Positions 14,172 through 37,148 of a DNA stretch of 37,612 nt are shown piece by piece. The DNA comes from Betaproteobacteria bacterium (lineage in GTDB: Bacteria > Pseudomonadota > Gammaproteobacteria > Burkholderiales > Burkholderiaceae_C), in contig RFTR01000002.1 in assembly GCA_009923345.1 (NCBI GenBank), forward strand, positions 1 to 37,612, written 5' to 3'. The position numbers were made by a program, and so were the translations under genes. A model generated the notes under the pieces. That model was not told the DNA's origin, ran no database searches, and saw nothing but the letters and a program-made list of their open reading frames with translations. Positions within the stretch are counted from its first letter, which is position 1. Each line of letters starts with the position of its first letter.

Positions 14172-15044
14172 GTGACGATTCTGTTTGACGGCATTGCCTA
14201 TGGCATGCTGCTGTTCATTCTGGCCGTAGGCCTGTCGGTGACCATGGGGTTGATGAACTTCATCAACCTCGCTCATGGCGCTTTTGCTATGGTGGGGGGC
14301 TACCTCACTGTCGTGCTGATGCAGCGGTTTGACGTGCCTTTTTTGGTTTGTTTGCCGATTGCATTTGCAGGCACCGCGCTACTAGGTGCTTTTTTAGAGC
14401 GCACTTTGTACCGCCCTATGTACCGCAAGCCGCATTTGGACCAGGTGCTGTTTTCGATCGGGCTAGCATTTATGGCAGTGGCCTCAGTCGATTACTTTGT
14501 CGGTTCGCAGCAGCAAATCATGCAACTTCCTGAGTGGCTGAAAGGCCGTACCGAGTTGGGTGCTGGCACGCCTTGGGAATTGGGTATGGGGCACTACCGT
14601 TTGTTCATCATCGCGGTGTGTGCGGCACTGACGGTTGGCTTGCAATATGTCTTGTCGGCCACCCGTTTTGGCAGCCGCTTGCGTGCGAGTGTGGACGACC
14701 CGCGCGTCGCAGCAGGCATGGGTATTAACGTGAATGTGGTGTTTGCCATGACCTTTGCTGTGGGCTCGGGCCTTGCGGGCTTGGGTGGCGCTTTGGGTGC
14801 TGAGGTGCTGGGGCTGGACCCCACTTTCCCACTCAAATTTATGGTGTATTTTTTGATCGTCGTGGCGGTGGGCGGCACTTCTTCTATCACTGGTCCTTTG
14901 CTGGCGGCTTTGCTTTTGGGAGTGGCCGATGTGGCGGGTAAATATTACGTACCGAAGTTGGGTGCTTTCATCGTTTACACCTTGATGCTGGCGATTCTGA
15001 TGTGGCGTCCGCAAGGCTTGTTTGTGCGGCAAGGAGGGAAGTGA
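14172..15044 (+). CDS. livH: Branched-chain amino acid-type ABC permease LivH
   Basis: The 290-aa membrane protein opens ILFDGIAYGMLLFILAVGLSVTMGLMNFINLAHGAFAMVGGY, the standard LivH start with the NLAHG motif. It has about eight hydrophobic segments and a cytoplasmic loop carrying the coupling sequence GSRLRASVDDPRVAAGMGINV, typical of ABC permeases of this class. The start codon is GTG, 6 bases after livJ. The product pairs with LivM in the inner membrane. An AAGGAGGG inside its last codons serves the next gene. Confidence 0.94.
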   Translation: MTILFDGIAYGMLLFILAVGLSVTMGLMNFINLAHGAFAMVGGYLTVVLMQRFDVPFLVCLPIAFAGTALLGAFLERTLYRPMYRKPHLDQVLFSIGLAFMAVASVDYFVGSQQQIMQLPEWLKGRTELGAGTPWELGMGHYRLFIIAVCAALTVGLQYVLSATRFGSRLRASVDDPRVAAGMGINVNVVFAMTFAVGSGLAGLGGALGAEVLGLDPTFPLKFMVYFLIVVAVGGTSSITGPLLAALLLGVADVAGKYYVPKLGAFIVYTLMLAILMWRPQGLFVRQGGK

Positions 15045-15045
15045 T

Positions 15046-15989
15046 TTGGCGAACTTGCAAATGCCTCTCTTGAAGAAATCTGCCGTGCAATGGTGGGAGC
15101 CAGTTTTATGGCTCTTGGCTTTTTCAGCGCCTTGGGCTTTCCCTCACCATGCTTTGATCATCAACGAGATTGCCATCGTGGCGCTGTTTGCGGTGTCGTT
15201 GGATTTGGTCTTGGGTTATGGCGGCATCGTGTCATTGGGACATGCTTCGTTTCTGGGCTTCGGGGCCTACACAGCGGCGTTGTTCGCCAAGTGGATACAT
15301 CCTGATCCATTGTTAGGTTTGGTAGTCGGAACAGCGGCGGCTTGTGTTTTGGGTGCGCTCTGTTCGGCGACGATTTTGCGAGGTAGTGATCTGACGCGCT
15401 TGATGGTCACCTTGGGTATGGCACTCATCTTGTTTGAGTTGGCCAATAAGTTCGACGGATTGACCGGTGGCTCTGACGGACTGCAAGGTGTGGTCATGGG
15501 CCCGGTGCTTGGACGCTTTGAATTTGACTTGATGGGCCAAGTGGCAGCGAGTTATTCATTGGCTATTTTGTTGGCGATCTTTTTCTTCATTCACCTTTTG
15601 GTGCCACATTGATGGCAGTGCGCGACAACCGTTTGCGCGCGATGGCTATTGGTGTGCCCGTTTCTGCGCGCTTGGCGGTGGTTTACACAATTGCCGCAGG
15701 TATTGCTGGTGCTGCTGGTGCGTTGATGGCGCAAACCACGGGATTTGCTTCGCTAGATGTATTCGCTTTGGAGCGTTCAGCCGACGTGATGTTGATGCTG
15801 GTGATAGGCGGCGTCGGCTGGTTATATGGGGGCGTGGTCGGAGCTGTGGTGTTTAAGTTGATGCACGACGTGATTTCAAACATCACCCCGCAATACTGGA
15901 CCTTTTGGATGGGCTTGTTTTTGGTGGTCTTGGTGATGGTCGGGCGCGAGCGCTTGTTCAAGCCTTGGACGTGGATGGGGCGCTCATGA
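15046..15989 (+). pseudogene. livM: ABC permease LivM, split by a frameshift
   Basis: The start is the TTG at 15046, 7 nt after AAGGAGGG and 1 base after the livH stop. Frame 1 gives ISLGHASFLGFGAY-type LivM sequence (GIVSLGHASFLGFGAYTAAL) up to ...IFFFIHLLVPH, then stops at 15612. The second frame continues HSPFGATLMAVRDNRLRAMAIG, the conserved coupling loop, and runs to 15989 with the normal LivM end. The two frames together make an otherwise complete protein of about 315-320 residues. Family spacing suggests about five residues are missing at the junction near 15588-15605. Either the gene is inactivated, or the sequence is wrong here. An intact livH, livG and livF around it argue for a recent event or an assembly error. 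Confidence 0.85.
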
Positions 15990-16753
15990 ATTCCAGCACA
16001 GTCGTTCTGCAAACCCACGGACTGGTCAAACGCTTTGGCGGTATCACCGCGACCGACCATGTGAACCTGTCAATCACCCAAGGCGCCCGCCACGCATTGA
16101 TTGGTCCTAATGGCGCTGGAAAGACTACGCTGATCAACCTCATCACAGGCGTGTTGCCCCAAAGCGAAGGACGCATTACCTTAGAAGGTGCGGACATCAC
16201 CGACCTAGCACCCCACCAGCGGGTGAGCCGAGGTTTGGTGCGTACGTTCCAAATCAACCAACTTTTTAGTGGCATGACGCCGCTGGAGACATTGGTGATG
16301 GTGGTCTCGCAACACCGTGGCTTGGGATCGCGTTGGTGGCAAGCGCTGGGACAAGACAAAGCGGTGGTCGAGCGTTGCGGTCAGCTGTTGGAGCAATTCC
16401 GCTTGACCGATGTGATGCACCAACGCACCGAGCAAATGCCCTACGGCAAGCGCCGCTTGTTAGAAATGGCGATCGCCTTGGCGTGCGAACCGCGCGTATT
16501 GCTGTTGGACGAGCCTGTGGCTGGTGTGCCAGCGGGCGAGCGCGAAGAGCTTTTACATACTGTTTCTGCTTTGCCTGTAGACGTGTCGGTCGTGCTGATT
16601 GAGCACGATATGGATTTGGTGTTTGAATTTGCCAAGCGCATCACGGTTCTCGTGAACGGTGCAGTGTTGACCGAAGGCACGCCTGCAGAAATTGCCCAAG
16701 ACCCCCAAGTCAAGGCTGTCTATTTAGGACACGGGGAGGGCGCGCATGTCTGA
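15986..16753 (+). CDS. livG: ABC transporter ATP-binding protein LivG
   Basis: The ATG at 15986 overlaps the livM stop and gives a 255-aa protein; the longer track start at 15905 runs back into livM. Walker A is GPNGAGKTT (residues 40-48), the Q-loop is in RTFQINQLF, the signature is the LivG-type variant MPYGKRRLLEMAIAL, and Walker B is LLLDEPVAGV followed by a switch His in IEHDMD. With LivF it forms the heterodimeric ATPase of the importer. Its stop overlaps the livF start by 8 bases. Confidence 0.93.
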   Translation: MNSSTVVLQTHGLVKRFGGITATDHVNLSITQGARHALIGPNGAGKTTLINLITGVLPQSEGRITLEGADITDLAPHQRVSRGLVRTFQINQLFSGMTPLETLVMVVSQHRGLGSRWWQALGQDKAVVERCGQLLEQFRLTDVMHQRTEQMPYGKRRLLEMAIALACEPRVLLLDEPVAGVPAGEREELLHTVSALPVDVSVVLIEHDMDLVFEFAKRITVLVNGAVLTEGTPAEIAQDPQVKAVYLGHGEGAHV

Positions 16754-18865: not shown

Positions 18866-18992
18866 AAAAGTTGGGGGCTCGAGGGTTAGGAAGCACCTTC
18901 AGAAATTCATCTAAGTCTTTGCTTTGCATAGATTTTTTTTTACATTTAAACAACAAAAAAATCAACAATCAGGCATTTTTGGCACTTTGTTT

Positions 18993-19000
18993 GCTAAAAT
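18993..19000 (+). promoter_or_regulatory. Possible extended -10 promoter for the bactofilin operon
   Basis: After a markedly AT-rich stretch (T9 and A7 runs, 18921-18961) there is TGCTAAAAT, an extended -10 type element (TGn + TAAAAT), only about 20 bases before the bactofilin ATG. No convincing -35 is visible, and the leader would be very short (about 12 nt), so this is tentative. The rest of the 153-base gap holds nothing else that I recognise. Confidence 0.35.
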
Positions 19001-19018
19001 TTTGAGCAAGGAGTCCAT

Positions 19019-19390
19019 ATGTCTAACCAATCAGAATCACTCGAAAGCGTCGTCATTGGCGACGGCGTTGTCGTCAAAGGCACTTTCACCGTCCCATCCA
19101 AAGCCATCATCAATGGCGTGATCGAAGGTGACTTGACCGCAGAAGAAGTACTGATTGGCCCAACCGGTCGCATCACCGGTCGCGTCTCTGCCAAGGTGAT
19201 TGACGTGCGTGGACAGTTGCACAACACCATCATCAGCGAAAAGAGTTTGATCGTGCGCGCCACTGGCAAGATTGCCGGCAAGGTGCAGTACGCTGAAATC
19301 GAAATCGAAAAGGGTGGCGAAATCGAAGGTACGCTCAGCCAAAGCGCTGATGGTCCTGCGATCCAAGTCGGCACCACACCTGCGGCCTAA
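19019..19390 (+). CDS. bacA: Bactofilin (first copy)
   Basis: The 123-aa protein is almost entirely a bactofilin (DUF583) domain: repeated short beta-turn units such as IINGVIEGDLTAEEVLIGPTG and GRVSAKVIDVRG, as in the right-handed beta-helix of BacA. The short N- and C-terminal tails are uncharged or Pro/Ala ends. Bactofilins polymerise without nucleotide into membrane-associated filaments that localise cell-wall enzymes and shape stalks, curvature or poles. AAGGAG precedes the ATG. It is the first gene of a four-gene module with an M23 peptidase 14 bases downstream, the association known from other bactofilin loci. It is the shorter of the two bactofilins here and lacks the long N-terminal tail of the second. 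Confidence 0.9.
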   Translation: MSNQSESLESVVIGDGVVVKGTFTVPSKAIINGVIEGDLTAEEVLIGPTGRITGRVSAKVIDVRGQLHNTIISEKSLIVRATGKIAGKVQYAEIEIEKGGEIEGTLSQSADGPAIQVGTTPAA

Positions 19391-19404
19391 GTTACCAGCG
19401 GGTC

Positions 19405-20448
19405 ATGCGGTTTAACCGAATCCTCAAAAGCATTCCATTGGTGCCAGGTTTGGTCGTCAAGGGATGGACGCGCCAGTATGAAGACGCGCGCATCATCTTG
19501 GAACAAAACGGCGACCTGCACTATCTCAATATCAGTGCGCGCGTCCAAAGTTTTCTAGTCCGTGGCGGTATTCTGGCTACTGGGGTGATGTTGATATCTA
19601 TCGGTATTTTGCTCGTCACTAGCATTGGTTTGATGGTGAGCCGTTCCAAGCTGGAGCGCTCGCACGAAGAGGTGTACCGTGCTTTGCTCAGCAGTGTGTC
19701 AGACAACGACAACCCAGAGCGGTTGAGCATGTCAGAAGAGCAAATGGTGTCTTTGGCCCAAACCATTCGTGATCGCGATATGAGCATTCGCCGTTTCGTC
19801 GATACGTCTATGGTGGCTGTGGCGCAAGAGAACGTGACGATGAAGTCGCAACTCGAATCTTCTGGCCTGACCGAAAAAATCGTCAAGATCATTCAGCAAA
19901 ACTCTGCCAACGGGGGCTACGCCTTGGAAGACGACGTCAAGGACAACCCTTTGCTGCGCGGCAAAGTCGCGGAAGAACTCTCCAGCAACCGCGCCATGCG
20001 CGAGGTGATGTATTCCTTGCCAAGTTCTATGCCTGTGCCCAATTACAGCGTCTCCTCTGACTTTGGTATCCGACGTCATCCTATTTCTGGTCAAACGCAT
20101 TTCCACACGGGTGTTGATTTGCTGAGCCAAACAGGCGAAGAAAAGGTGCATCCAGTCAAGCCTGGAGTCGTTGTTTTAGCGGAGTACCAGCCACAGCTTG
20201 GAAATACCGTCGTTGTGCGTCATACCAACGGAGTTGAATCCTTGTATGGGCATATGGCTAACTTGCAAGTCAAGCTCGGCGACAAAGTGACACTTGAGTC
20301 AGTGTTGGGCAATATTGGCAACACAGGTTCTTCTTCTACTGGAAAACATTTACATTTAGAGATTTTGATTGGCGGTTATCCTGTCAATCCCCAGAAAGTT
20401 ATTCGGACGGCACAATATGTTCAACAAATCCAAAACCAACAACGTTAA
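19405..20448 (+). CDS. Membrane-anchored M23 (LytM-type) peptidase
   Basis: The 347-aa protein has an N-terminal cytoplasmic segment, one membrane helix near residues 52-75 (GILATGVMLISIGILLVTSIG), a predicted coiled-coil stretch to about residue 170, and a C-terminal M23 domain. Zinc ligands are visible in HTGVDL (His and Asp) and in GKHLHLEI (HxH), with SLYGHM between, so the peptidase looks catalytically complete. It probably cuts peptidoglycan cross-links in the periplasm at a site set by the bactofilins. Its 3' end overlaps the start of the second bactofilin. M23 plus bactofilin pairs are known (LmdC/BacA); here the pair is enlarged. Confidence 0.9.
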   Translation: MRFNRILKSIPLVPGLVVKGWTRQYEDARIILEQNGDLHYLNISARVQSFLVRGGILATGVMLISIGILLVTSIGLMVSRSKLERSHEEVYRALLSSVSDNDNPERLSMSEEQMVSLAQTIRDRDMSIRRFVDTSMVAVAQENVTMKSQLESSGLTEKIVKIIQQNSANGGYALEDDVKDNPLLRGKVAEELSSNRAMREVMYSLPSSMPVPNYSVSSDFGIRRHPISGQTHFHTGVDLLSQTGEEKVHPVKPGVVVLAEYQPQLGNTVVVRHTNGVESLYGHMANLQVKLGDKVTLESVLGNIGNTGSSSTGKHLHLEILIGGYPVNPQKVIRTAQYVQQIQNQQR

Positions 20449-20896
20449 TCCGCCGACGGATGTACCTGTCACAAATCCTGTTGAGGACGAAGAAATGGCG
20501 TCAGAAGCCCCTGAAAATACTGCTCCTACACCGAGTCCTGCCCCTGCTGCTAGAGGCAGCATGATGGACATGATCACCACCACCGCAAACAAGCCCTCTA
20601 TCCTGAGCGAAGGCTTCTCGTTCCGCGGTGAGATCGCTGCCAAAGGTGCGATCCATGTGGAAGGCGCACTCAATGGCCAAATTCAAGTAGACGAACTCAC
20701 CATTGGCGCACGCGGCCAAGTGGAAGGTGTTGTTACTTGCAGCAGCTTGCATATCAAAGGCAAGTTCTCTGGAACAGCTACCTGTAACGAGTTGATCGTC
20801 ACATCCTCTGCGTCAGTCGATGGCCATGTGGTCTATCAAACTTTGTCAGTCCAAAAAGGCGCATCTATCAAAGGCGAACTCTTGTTGGTCAAGTAA
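20417..20896 (+). CDS. Bactofilin (second copy, with disordered N-terminal tail)
   Basis: The ATG at 20417 (MFNKSKTNN) is preferred to the track's 20369, which runs deeper into the peptidase gene; it still overlaps that gene by 32 bases. The 159-aa product has a roughly 60-residue acidic, Pro-rich tail (PVEDEEMASEAPEN..., SPAPAARG). A bactofilin domain follows: GFSFRGEIAAKGAIHVEGALNGQIQ, IGARGQVEGVV, LHIKGKFSGTATC and ASIKGELLL. The domain differs clearly from the first copy, so it is not a recent duplication. The tail could bind membrane or partner proteins. Its stop directly precedes the ATG of the RodZ-like gene. Confidence 0.88.
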   Translation: MFNKSKTNNVNPPTDVPVTNPVEDEEMASEAPENTAPTPSPAPAARGSMMDMITTTANKPSILSEGFSFRGEIAAKGAIHVEGALNGQIQVDELTIGARGQVEGVVTCSSLHIKGKFSGTATCNELIVTSSASVDGHVVYQTLSVQKGASIKGELLLVK

Positions 20897-21817
20897 ATGG
20901 ATAACCACATCCCACAAATCAACGGCGCGCTTTTGCGTATGCGTCGCGAAGAATTGGGATGGGCCCTGTCAGATCTAGCCACTCGTGCTTGTTTGTCTAA
21001 CAAACAGGTCAAACAAATCGAAGAGGGCGGTACCAGCTCCTTTTACAGTGAAAACGTTAAAGTCACTGCCGCCAAAAAAGTAGGTGGCATATTGGGCTTG
21101 TCCGAACAATCTGTGTTTGTGGTCCAAGAGCCAGAAGTTATGGTTGACGAGGTTGCAAGCCAAGAGGTTGTGACAAGCCATACTAGCGAGAATGCGCACG
21201 CTGACCCCTCTGCTAGTGGCAAAGCGCATACTGAATTAACCGCTTCCACTGGCCAAGATATCCATGACAGCAATGCGAGCCCAAAAGACATCGCTTCTCC
21301 TGCTTTCAAACCCTATCTCAAAGCGCCATCAATTGAAACTTCAGTGATTCAAAAATCAACGAATTCAGCATTGGACAGCGAAGACAAGTCCAAGTCTAAA
21401 AATTCTTTGTGGTTCATCATTGCTTTATTTGTTGCTGCCTTGGGGTTGGCTGCTGTCATGCAAAAACCTGCACCAACTCCTCCGGTTGAACCACCGCCCC
21501 CAATCCAAGTGTTACCCCCTGAGCAACCTGAACCTGCAGCTTCGGCTCCTAGTGCTACTGCCTCAGGTGCTTTACCAGCTGCTCCATCGGCTACGCCCGC
21601 CCCTGCGACTTCAACCGCCCCTTTGACAACATCGACTCCATCGAGTGTCCCAACTAGCGCGCCCGTAAATGTGGTGCCTGCTGCCCGTCCTGCAGTTGTA
21701 ACAACGCCTGCACCGGCTCCTTCAGCTTCGCAGGCACCAGTTAGTTCAGTAGCGCCTCCTGTGCCAGCCGCAACCCAAACTTCTCCAGCTGCACCTTCTG
21801 CTAGCAAGCCTCAGTAG
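20897..21817 (+). CDS. RodZ-like HTH / transmembrane / Pro-Ala-rich protein
   Basis: The 306-aa protein has an Xre-like helix-turn-helix region at residues 8-75 (GALLRMRREELGWALSDLATRACLS, KQIEEG, then a RodZ-like FYSENVKVTAAKKVGGILGL). An acidic linker follows, then a membrane helix at about 171-189 (LWFIIALFVAALGLAAVM) and a tail of some 115 residues made almost only of Pro, Ala, Ser, Thr and Val. This is the RodZ domain order, where the HTH binds MreB rather than DNA, but the periplasmic beta domain of RodZ is replaced by a low-complexity tail. It begins directly after the second bactofilin stop (TAA ATG). I infer a membrane adaptor that links the bactofilin filament to cell-wall machinery; DNA binding is a less likely alternative. 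Confidence 0.75.
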   Translation: MDNHIPQINGALLRMRREELGWALSDLATRACLSNKQVKQIEEGGTSSFYSENVKVTAAKKVGGILGLSEQSVFVVQEPEVMVDEVASQEVVTSHTSENAHADPSASGKAHTELTASTGQDIHDSNASPKDIASPAFKPYLKAPSIETSVIQKSTNSALDSEDKSKSKNSLWFIIALFVAALGLAAVMQKPAPTPPVEPPPPIQVLPPEQPEPAASAPSATASGALPAAPSATPAPATSTAPLTTSTPSSVPTSAPVNVVPAARPAVVTTPAPAPSASQAPVSSVAPPVPAATQTSPAAPSASKPQ

Positions 21818-34785: not shown

Positions 34786-37148
34786 ATGTCTGGACAACCC
34801 CCGTTGCCCCCCACTCTTATTGAACTACCGCTATTGCCGTTGCGCGACGTCGTCGTGTTTCCGCACATGGTCATCCCGCTATTTGTCGGACGTCCTAAGA
34901 GCATCAAAGCGCTTGAAACAGCTATGGCCGCTGAGCGTCGCATCATGCTCGTTGCGCAAAAAGCAGCAGCTAAAGACGAGCCTGAAGTCACCGACATGTT
35001 CCAAGTCGGTTGCGTATCCACTATTTTGCAAATGTTGAAGTTGCCAGACGGCACAGTGAAAGTATTGGTAGAAGGTCAGCAACGCGCAAAAGTCGACGGT
35101 ATTGAGGACGGAGAAGCCCACTTCACAGCGCATGTCACTCCTATCGAAGTGGCGCCCACAGAAACGGGTAGTGAAGTAGAAGCCCTGCGCCGGGCGGTGA
35201 TGCAGCAGTTTGACCAATACGTCAAACTTAACAAAAAAATACCACCAGAAATTCTCACGTCTATAGCGAGTATCGACGACGCAGGCCGATTAGCTGACAC
35301 CATCGCTGCGCACTTGCCTTTGAAGTTAGAAAACAAACAACTCGTACTCGATTTATCTTCGGTAAAAGAGCGTTTAGAAAATCTCTACGAACAACTAGAG
35401 CGTGAAGTCGATATTTTGAATGTCGACAAGAAAATCCGTGGCCGCGTCAAGCGCCAAATGGAAAAAAACCAACGCGATTTTTATTTGAATGAGCAAGTTA
35501 AAGCCATTCAAAAAGAACTTGGTGAAGGCGAAGAGGGCGCCGACATCGAAGAGATCGAGAAAAAAATCAAAGCGGCCCGCATGCCGCAAGAAGCGCGCAA
35601 AAAAGCAGATTCTGAGTTGAAAAAACTCAAACTCATGTCACCCATGTCAGCCGAAGCCACGGTGGTGCGCAATTACATTGACGTGTTGGTGGGATTGCCA
35701 TGGGCCAAGAAAACCAAAATCAAACACGATTTGGGTAATGCAGAAAACGTGCTCAATGAAGACCACTATGGCTTGGACAAAGTCAAAGACCGCATTCTTG
35801 AATATTTAGCAGTGCAACAACGTGTCGATAAAGTCAAAGCACCTATTTTGTGTTTGGTCGGCCCTCCTGGTGTCGGTTGGCCTTAGGCGGTATGCGTGAC
35901 GAAGCCGAAATTCGTGGTCATCGCCGCACTTACATTGGCGCAATGCCGGGCAAAGTATTACAAAGCCTGACCAAAGTCGGCACGCGTAATCCTTTGTTCT
36001 TGTTAGATGAAATCGACAAACTTGGCACAGATTTCCGCGGCGATCCATCGAGCGCACTGCTCGAGGTGTTAGACCCCGAACAAAACAACAAATTTGGTGA
36101 CCACTACGTGGAAGTCGACTACGACTTGAGCGACGTGATGTTTGTCGCGACATCGAATTCGATGAATATTCCTCCTGCATTGTTAGACCGGATGGAAGTC
36201 ATTCGTTTGTCGGGTTACACCGAAGACGAAAAAACCCATATCGCCATGAAATATCTGTTCCCCAAACAGATGAAAAACAATGGCGTGAAAGAACAAGAAC
36301 TCAAAGTAGAAGAGAGCGCCGTGCGCGACATCGTGCGCTACTACACCCGTGAGGCTGGTGTGCGTTCTTTAGAGCGCGAGTTGTCCAAGATTTGCCGCAA
36401 AGTTGTTAAAGCGTTGTTGCTCAAACAAATGCAACCGCAAGTGGTAGTGACTGCGGACAACTTGAATGATTTCTTGGGCGTGCGCAAATATTCGTATGGC
36501 CGAGCCGAAGCACAAAACCAAGTCGGACAAGTGGTCGGCTTGGCGTGGACAGAAGTTGGTGGCGATTTGCTCACCATCGAAGCCGCCATCATGATTGGTA
36601 AAGGCACGATCACGCGCACGGGTTCATTGGGCGACGTGATGAAAGAATCTGTTGAAGCTGCCCGTACTGTGGTGCGTAGCCGCGCACGCGTCTTAGGCAT
36701 TACCGAAGACTTGTTAGAAAAGCGCGACATACACATTCACGTGCCCGATGGTGCAACGCCTAAAGACGGCCCCAGTGCTGGCGCTGCCATGACTACGGCG
36801 TTGGTATCTGCACTTACTGGTATTCCTGTGCGTGCCGATGTGGCGATGACAGGCGAGATTACCTTGCGTGGTGAAGTGACCGCGATTGGTGGCTTGAAAG
36901 AAAAATTATTGGCGGCATTGCGTGGCGGTATCAAAACCGTTTTGATCCCTGAAGAAAACGTCAAAGACTTGCAAGAAATTCCTGACAACGTGAAGAGCGG
37001 TTTGGAAATCGTGCCCGTCAAGTGGATAGATAAGGTGCTCGAAATCGCGCTTGAGCGCGTGCCCACAGCTTTGCCAGACGACATCGCGGTGGTGCCAACG
37101 CCCCCAGCGACGGAAGGCGACTTGAAGGCGCAAGCCATCAAGCACTAA
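34786..37148 (+). pseudogene. lon: ATP-dependent protease Lon, disrupted by an internal deletion and frameshift
   Basis: The N-terminal part (34786-35886) has the Lon substrate-binding domain (LPLLPLRDVVVFPHMVIPLFVGR) and reaches CLVGPPGVG. It should then read KTSLGQ..., but instead gives WP and a stop at 35884. The second frame resumes at [27 protein letters not shown] and continues through Walker [11 protein letters not shown], the sensor region and the protease domain with Ser in KDGPSAGAA and Lys in GGLKEK, to a normal end at 37148. By comparison with the family about 17 residues (KTSLGQ...FV) are missing, equal to a deletion of about 55 bp at 35872-35877. The Walker A Lys-Thr is lost, so even a frameshift-suppressed product should lack ATPase activity. 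Everything else is well conserved, so decay is recent or the sequence is in error. Confidence 0.88.

Follow-up and report, generated by a model that had tools for sequence, protein, structure and literature searches.

A 37.6 kb window of DNA (the whole stretch analysed here; contig C2 of a 2.04 Mb source genome in 337 contigs, 84% complete) from a Limnohabitans-like, lake-dwelling freshwater bacterium carries four genes for two bactofilins (Bac1 and Bac2), an M23 peptidase of the LmdC kind encoded between them, and HTH1—a membrane-anchored helix-turn-helix (HTH) protein that resembles RodZ in build. We consider that this locus is probably one operon, encoding an extended version of the bactofilin-LmdC cell-shape module. 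Together with M23 partner enzymes, bactofilins give curved and stalked bacteria their shape; to our knowledge, few bactofilin clients or anchors are known. The two-bactofilin set with a RodZ-like membrane protein appears to be a novel extension of the known bactofilin-M23 module, and a literature search returned no paper combining bactofilin with Limnohabitans or with Polynucleobacter.

The four-gene unit and its conservation

The first-pass annotation of this DNA, made without database searches, had proposed four open reading frames (ORFs) in this span. All four are real, intact, tightly packed and on the forward strand, and Pfam recognizes Bactofilin twice and Peptidase_M23 once among their products (Table 1). 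The distances between them are 14 nt from bac1 to the M23 gene and 0 nt from bac2 to the HTH1 gene; the M23 gene and bac2 overlap by 32 nt, as the ATG at 20417 (MFNKSK...) is preferred as the bac2 start over a TTG at 20369. In bac2 homologues the start codon likewise sits 23–32 nt 5' of the M23 stop.

Table 1. Features of the four-gene locus and of related loci.
Feature	Position	Strand	Evidence or detail
Upstream region with phylogenetic footprint	18900–19018	+	CTAAGT..TTGC, TAAACAACA, TTTGTTTGCTAAAATT, then AAGGAG Shine-Dalgarno
bac1, bactofilin without membrane-targeting N-terminus (MSNQSESLE...), 123 amino acids (aa)	19019–19390	+	Pfam PF04519, 4.7e-20
LmdC-like bitopic M23 peptidase, 347 aa	19405–20448	+	PF01551 (Peptidase_M23), 4.7e-24
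Cytoplasmic beta-hairpin codons, M23 peptidase residues 28–43	19486–19533	+	AlphaFold2, invariant residues
LytM/M23 catalytic domain, residues 214–332	20044–20400	+	Pfam, AlphaFold2
bac2, bactofilin, 159 aa: MFNKSK peptide, variable linker, conserved core	20417–20896	+	Pfam Bactofilin, 3.6e-22
HTH1, RodZ-like membrane-anchored HTH protein, 306 aa	20897–21817	+	ORF, Pfam, AlphaFold2
RodZ/Xre-type HTH domain of HTH1, residues 10–73	20924–21115	+	AlphaFold2, Foldseek
Single transmembrane (TM) helix of HTH1, residues 169–188	21401–21460	+	TM prediction, AlphaFold2
HTH1 tail, predicted periplasmic, disordered Pro/Ala/Ser/Thr, without RodZ_C	21461–21814	+	Pfam, AlphaFold2
Clade morphogenesis island	L083 1–8750; also L080–L082, L084, L085, L093		
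HTH2 (RodZ-like HTH protein), followed by a bactofilin and a FixJ-type response regulator (receiver + LuxR HTH)	L150 3213–5259; L152 3407–5449		

Within the genus, the M23 gene occurs in 70 of 84 genomes and in 36 of the 40 good ones (completeness at least 90%, contamination at most 5%). The order bac1-M23-bac2-HTH is complete in 57 of 60 genus neighbourhoods and the remaining three are cut by contig ends, leaving 57/57 evaluable loci with the full set. A GTDB genome scan recovered the same genes in the same order on three Ramlibacter-like contigs (L095, L098 and L099). An earlier suggestion that the four form a unit is supported: the unit is conserved. Separation of the fourth gene from the others in relatives had been named as the finding that would speak against such a unit; no separation was seen within the genus, and the gene is absent from more distant genera that keep a three-gene core. 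Polaromonas-, Rubrivivax- and Malikia-like contigs carry bac1-M23-bac2 only (12/12). One bac1-M23-bac2 locus (L103, CALPRQ020000005.1), near-identical to the Malikia-like L105, is titled Chitinophaga pinensis, probably a mislabelled betaproteobacterial metagenome-assembled genome. Beyond the genus a full-length M23 gene is rare: it was present in 6 of 301 sampled family genomes, four of them genus members (G000 included).

An M23 tree contains a branch with 90/96 support that splits 36 four-gene loci from 12 three-gene loci; two further rows, truncated at contig ends, carry no label. Given this tree and the distribution of the two kinds of locus, the simplest history is a single event, in which the HTH gene probably joined an older three-gene core once.

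Comparison against three relatives shows that bac1, the M23 gene, bac2 and the HTH domain of HTH1 are under purifying selection. Nonsynonymous and synonymous differences (pN vs pS) are 0.06–0.07 vs 0.66–0.77 for bac1, 0.11–0.14 vs 0.68–0.77 for the M23 gene, 0.13–0.14 vs 0.65–0.78 for bac2, and 0.24–0.27 vs 0.63–0.84 for the HTH domain; the HTH1 linker is nearly unconstrained. Because these sequences are under purifying selection and the gene order is kept throughout the evaluable genus loci, the four-gene set is not a chance arrangement.

Alignment of the upstream region from 32 loci revealed conserved blocks 5' of bac1, ending in TTTGTTTGCTAAAATT and AAGGAG, and this region is a probable single promoter for the operon. 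No sigma-70 consensus was called in the bac1 upstream region, and the yield of a promoter/terminator scan was not above chance.

An LmdC-like M23 peptidase

Assignment of the M23 peptidase to the LmdC kind is supported by its predicted hairpin, its single N-terminal TM helix, the metal and catalytic residues of its C-terminal M23 domain, and the adjacent bactofilin gene that overlaps its own by 32 nt. AlphaFold2 models a cytoplasmic beta-hairpin (strands 28–34 and 37–43; per-residue confidence, pLDDT, about 75–84), followed by a long TM/coiled-coil helix and then the LytM domain. Among 21 aligned homologues H234, D238, H283, H315 and H317 are invariant, as are W21, D27, R29, I31, E33 and Q34 of the N-terminal region, and the hairpin, RIILEQNGDLHYLNIS, parallels RLYLRSETGTRYMRLTP of alphaproteobacterial M23-bactofilin pairs. 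The site at which Rhodospirillum rubrum LmdC binds bactofilin includes the hairpin as a critical element, and the equivalent N-terminal region of Hyphomonas neptunium LmdC makes direct contact with BacA (PMC10945521). By analogy, the peptidase is predicted to bind bactofilin and to cleave wall crosslinks; the wall hydrolase proposed at first pass holds up by domain, residues and predicted hairpin alike.

Two bactofilins, one with a membrane-targeting peptide

Both bactofilins score well above the curated PF04519 cut-off (72.1 and 78.9 bits against 27.9). The Bac2 N-terminus, MFNKSKTN, is an MF..K-type membrane-targeting peptide and matches the membrane-targeting peptide of Caulobacter crescentus BacA, MFSKQAKS (PMC12448750). 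The MF start is found in 50 of 51 Bac2 homologues; the MF..K start and the overlap with the M23 gene are retained nearly throughout the Limnohabitans-, Ramlibacter-, Polaromonas-, Rubrivivax- and Malikia-like loci. Bac1 begins MSNQ and has no such peptide; its core is 97% identical across 26 genus members.

The locus had initially been read as a soluble filament and a tailed, membrane-binding one, built from two divergent bactofilins. That two bactofilins bracket the peptidase, one with a membrane peptide and one without, is correct; the peptide is N-terminal and followed by a variable linker rather than forming a tail, and the two cores are of one kind. The natural reading is that soluble Bac1 and membrane-bound Bac2 would co-assemble.

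HTH1: RodZ-like in build

The fourth product had been described as a RodZ-like HTH/TM protein with a Pro-Ala tail, and this description is accurate—HTH1 has one TM helix and a tail that is 75% Pro/Ala/Ser/Thr, ranging from 3 to 156 aa across relatives. AlphaFold2 gives a confident HTH domain (pLDDT >90 over most of it) and the TM helix, with disorder elsewhere. In Foldseek, Thermotoga maritima RodZ (2wus_S) had the lowest root-mean-square deviation among the matches listed, 1.5 Å, and Staphylococcus aureus YmfM/RodZ (3fym), SinR, 434 and similar DNA-binding domains were also matched; a sequence profile search of the PDB returned DNA-binding HTH proteins, not RodZ. Pfam matches to HTH_31, HTH_25 and HTH_3 fall under their curated cut-offs. 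For HTH_25 the protein scores 21.1 bits against a cut-off of 24.6, a six-frame search gives 24.6, right at the cut-off, and one relative reaches 31.7. RodZ_C was not matched in HTH1 by Pfam; this absence is weak evidence, since the canonical RodZ of the same genome has no RodZ_C match either. HTH1 is thus RodZ-like in build and fails a functional feature of RodZ, described below; we do not class it as RodZ.

The match of the HTH profile to DNA-binding Xre/434/SinR domains raises the alternative that HTH1 is a membrane-tethered transcription factor, sensing the envelope and controlling the operon in the manner of one-component TM regulators. Consistent with this, the recognition-helix positions K/R36, Q37 and Q40 are kept in 59/59 proteins (F49, Y50, Q37, Q40 and K55 are invariant in the family alignment), TM-less family members adjoin response regulators or AraC-like proteins, and there are conserved non-coding elements 5' of bac1. 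However, those elements show no obvious inverted repeat, the HTH1 gene comes at the end of the operon and no promoter of its own was found, and other members of the family co-occur with bactofilins and have RodZ_C-like domains, as structural RodZ proteins do. We regard a regulator of this kind as rather unlikely.

It had also been proposed that HTH1 provides a transmembrane link to MreB-type machinery, as a RodZ-type adaptor connecting MreB and the elongasome with the bactofilin-peptidase scaffold. Its architecture and fold are RodZ-like, MreB is encoded in the same genome, and in H. neptunium a bactofilin confines RodZ-marked elongasomes (PMC10945521). MreB binding by Escherichia coli RodZ depends critically on F60 and Y64 (PMC4047632). 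In an ungapped alignment with the E. coli RodZ sequence through HTH_25 by Pfam coordinates, these positions are V54 and A58 in HTH1, and V/I and A/V/S/T in 59/59 proteins, never aromatic. A separate canonical rodZ adjoins ispG on another contig (C236), a position that the HTH1 gene does not occupy, and its product retains Phe67 at the F60 position, though with Leu at the Y64 position. With the contact aromatics and RodZ_C missing and a canonical RodZ encoded elsewhere, the proposed MreB link is unsupported; a lead model built on RodZ-type contacts was rejected for want of the contact residues, and we judge the adaptor role improbable. The idea of a self-contained scaffold accordingly survives as a conserved bactofilin/peptidase unit with an extra transmembrane member, less its link to MreB.

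That HTH1 is a genus-specific passenger of unrelated function beside a self-sufficient Bac1-M23-Bac2 set seems very improbable: in other genera the three genes are maintained in the absence of HTH1, which is the fastest-evolving of the four products, but its linkage is 57/57 across the genus at spacings of no more than about 50 nt, its HTH domain is under purifying selection, and related HTH proteins recur beside other bactofilins.

HTH proteins beside bactofilins elsewhere

Linkage between related HTH proteins and bactofilins recurs in the same genome, where an HTH/TM protein (HTH2) directly adjoins another bactofilin on contig C25; contig C283 carries a separate two-gene M23-bactofilin pair. 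In one clade these elements form a single island, HTH2-M23b-bac3-bac1-M23a-bac2-HTH1, flanked upstream on the opposite strand by minD, minC and, where the locus extends, another bactofilin. An HTH/TM gene also precedes a bactofilin in a genome of another family (G634), with two further bactofilins nearby. Weak RodZ_C matches occur in the Ramlibacter-like HTH proteins and in several HTH2 proteins. It is a tentative possibility that a RodZ-like membrane HTH lineage swapped MreB for bactofilins to become a dedicated anchor family in freshwater Burkholderiales, and that in one Limnohabitans clade a morphogenesis island by minCD brings it together with two M23 peptidases and as many as four bactofilins.

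Several neighbouring arrangements were recorded along the way. Locus L151 keeps the HTH protein and the response regulator seen in L150 and L152 (Table 1) and has no bactofilin. Small HTH proteins (145–154 aa) with a C-terminal TM helix adjoin flagellar genes, fliN/fliM-like by sequence (L148 7025–7489, L149 5449–5886); in L149 a bactofilin sits between the HTH gene and fliN. In a genome of another family, L192 (3260–3628) encodes an M23b-like protein of 122 aa, cut to its N-terminal membrane anchor and devoid of a peptidase domain, with bactofilins and an HTH/TM-bactofilin pair next to it. In family f26, genomes of about 1.3 Mb (L196, L199, L203–L206, L209) each contain as many as four related HTH proteins, and some of these have AraC-like neighbours. 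The HTH and bactofilin-like pair Cap0037/Cap0036 of Clostridium (PMC5050335) was set aside as involving a different kind of HTH protein.

Proposed mechanism and comparison with known systems

In the extended module that we favour, a bactofilin filament or sheet would recruit the bitopic M23 endopeptidase through its cytoplasmic N-terminal beta-hairpin, and the recruited enzyme would cut wall crosslinks locally. The catalytic residues can be read from the sequence itself, the hairpin and TM helix come from prediction, and recruitment is inferred from LmdC. HTH1, a RodZ-like paralogue with no MreB-contact aromatics and, within the genus, no RodZ_C, may add a second transmembrane anchor or a regulator to the bactofilin scaffold, with its HTH domain in the cytoplasm and its spacer-like tail in the periplasm. 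The likely output would be local control of wall remodelling, and through it cell curvature or width.

The closest known system is bacA-lmdC of H. neptunium and R. rubrum (PMC10945521), which shares an M23 gene overlapping a bactofilin gene; LmdC is likewise bitopic, with a cytoplasmic beta-hairpin, TM helix, coiled coil and LytM domain, and is recruited by the bactofilin. Whereas bacA-lmdC has one linked bactofilin, here another lies before the peptidase and an HTH/TM gene after it. The CcmA-Csd1-Csd2 system of Helicobacter pylori, with Csd5/Csd7, likewise combines a bactofilin, M23 enzymes and transmembrane partners, there acting together on curvature (PMC9507126). That system has a single bactofilin, Csd5 and Csd7 are not known to be HTH proteins, and the genes are arranged differently. 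The BacA-PbpC system of C. crescentus (PMC12448750) shares a bactofilin with a membrane peptide and a bitopic wall enzyme whose cytoplasmic tail mediates its recruitment; PbpC, however, is a synthase, and the enzyme here is an M23 hydrolase. With RodZ (HTH_25, TM helix and RodZ_C) HTH1 shares the N-terminal RodZ-fold HTH, a single TM helix and an extracytoplasmic C-terminal part; it differs in its contact residues, in the lack of RodZ_C in this genus, in being linked to bactofilin rather than ispG, and in being additional to the canonical protein.

Several observations weigh against an extended bactofilin-LmdC module with HTH1 as a member. HTH1 evolves much faster than its neighbours, with identities of 64% (HTH), 18% (linker) and 38% (tail) against 89–97% for the M23 domain and bactofilin cores, and one relative (L078/L210) has no clear TM helix in its 210-aa ORF. 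Some relatives of the HTH protein have no bactofilin nearby or no TM helix and adjoin response regulators or AraC-like proteins; the family is thus not specific to bactofilins. A strict bactofilin linkage was rejected on these contexts and on members beside flagellar genes; the other contexts are compatible with DNA binding. Finally, strain B9-3, a cultured carrier of the module, is recorded as ovoid, not curved (PMC3591437), and shape therefore does not track the presence of the module exactly.

Other features of the window

A convergent ferrochelatase gene, identified from its translation, lies downstream of the four-gene set. The lon gene is broken at 35820–35960: immediately beyond GPPGVG its reading frame ends, to be picked up in a different frame at ALGGMRDE, and some of the ATP-binding region seems to be lost—an assembly error in a fragmented genome, or a pseudogene. 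In a livM-like permease gene (15022–15990) the frame changes near 15590–15612, and the C-terminal half lies in another frame.

Cell shape and significance

Cells of Limnohabitans isolates vary in form from cocci to large solenoids (PMC3591437): each of the seven LimA strains is solenoid, and LimE includes both ovoid (B9-3) and solenoid strains. No firm correlation between module and shape was drawn, as the carrier B9-3 (LimE) is ovoid and several isolates are unscored; a link to curvature is plausible.

A whole genus of abundant freshwater plankton keeps a two-bactofilin version of the module with an extra RodZ-like membrane protein. Many morphotypes in the genus are curved (solenoid), and shape may affect grazing. 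Cultured carriers of the locus exist (Jir61, B9-3 and JirII-31), which opens to direct test what the fourth protein does and how the two bactofilins share their work.

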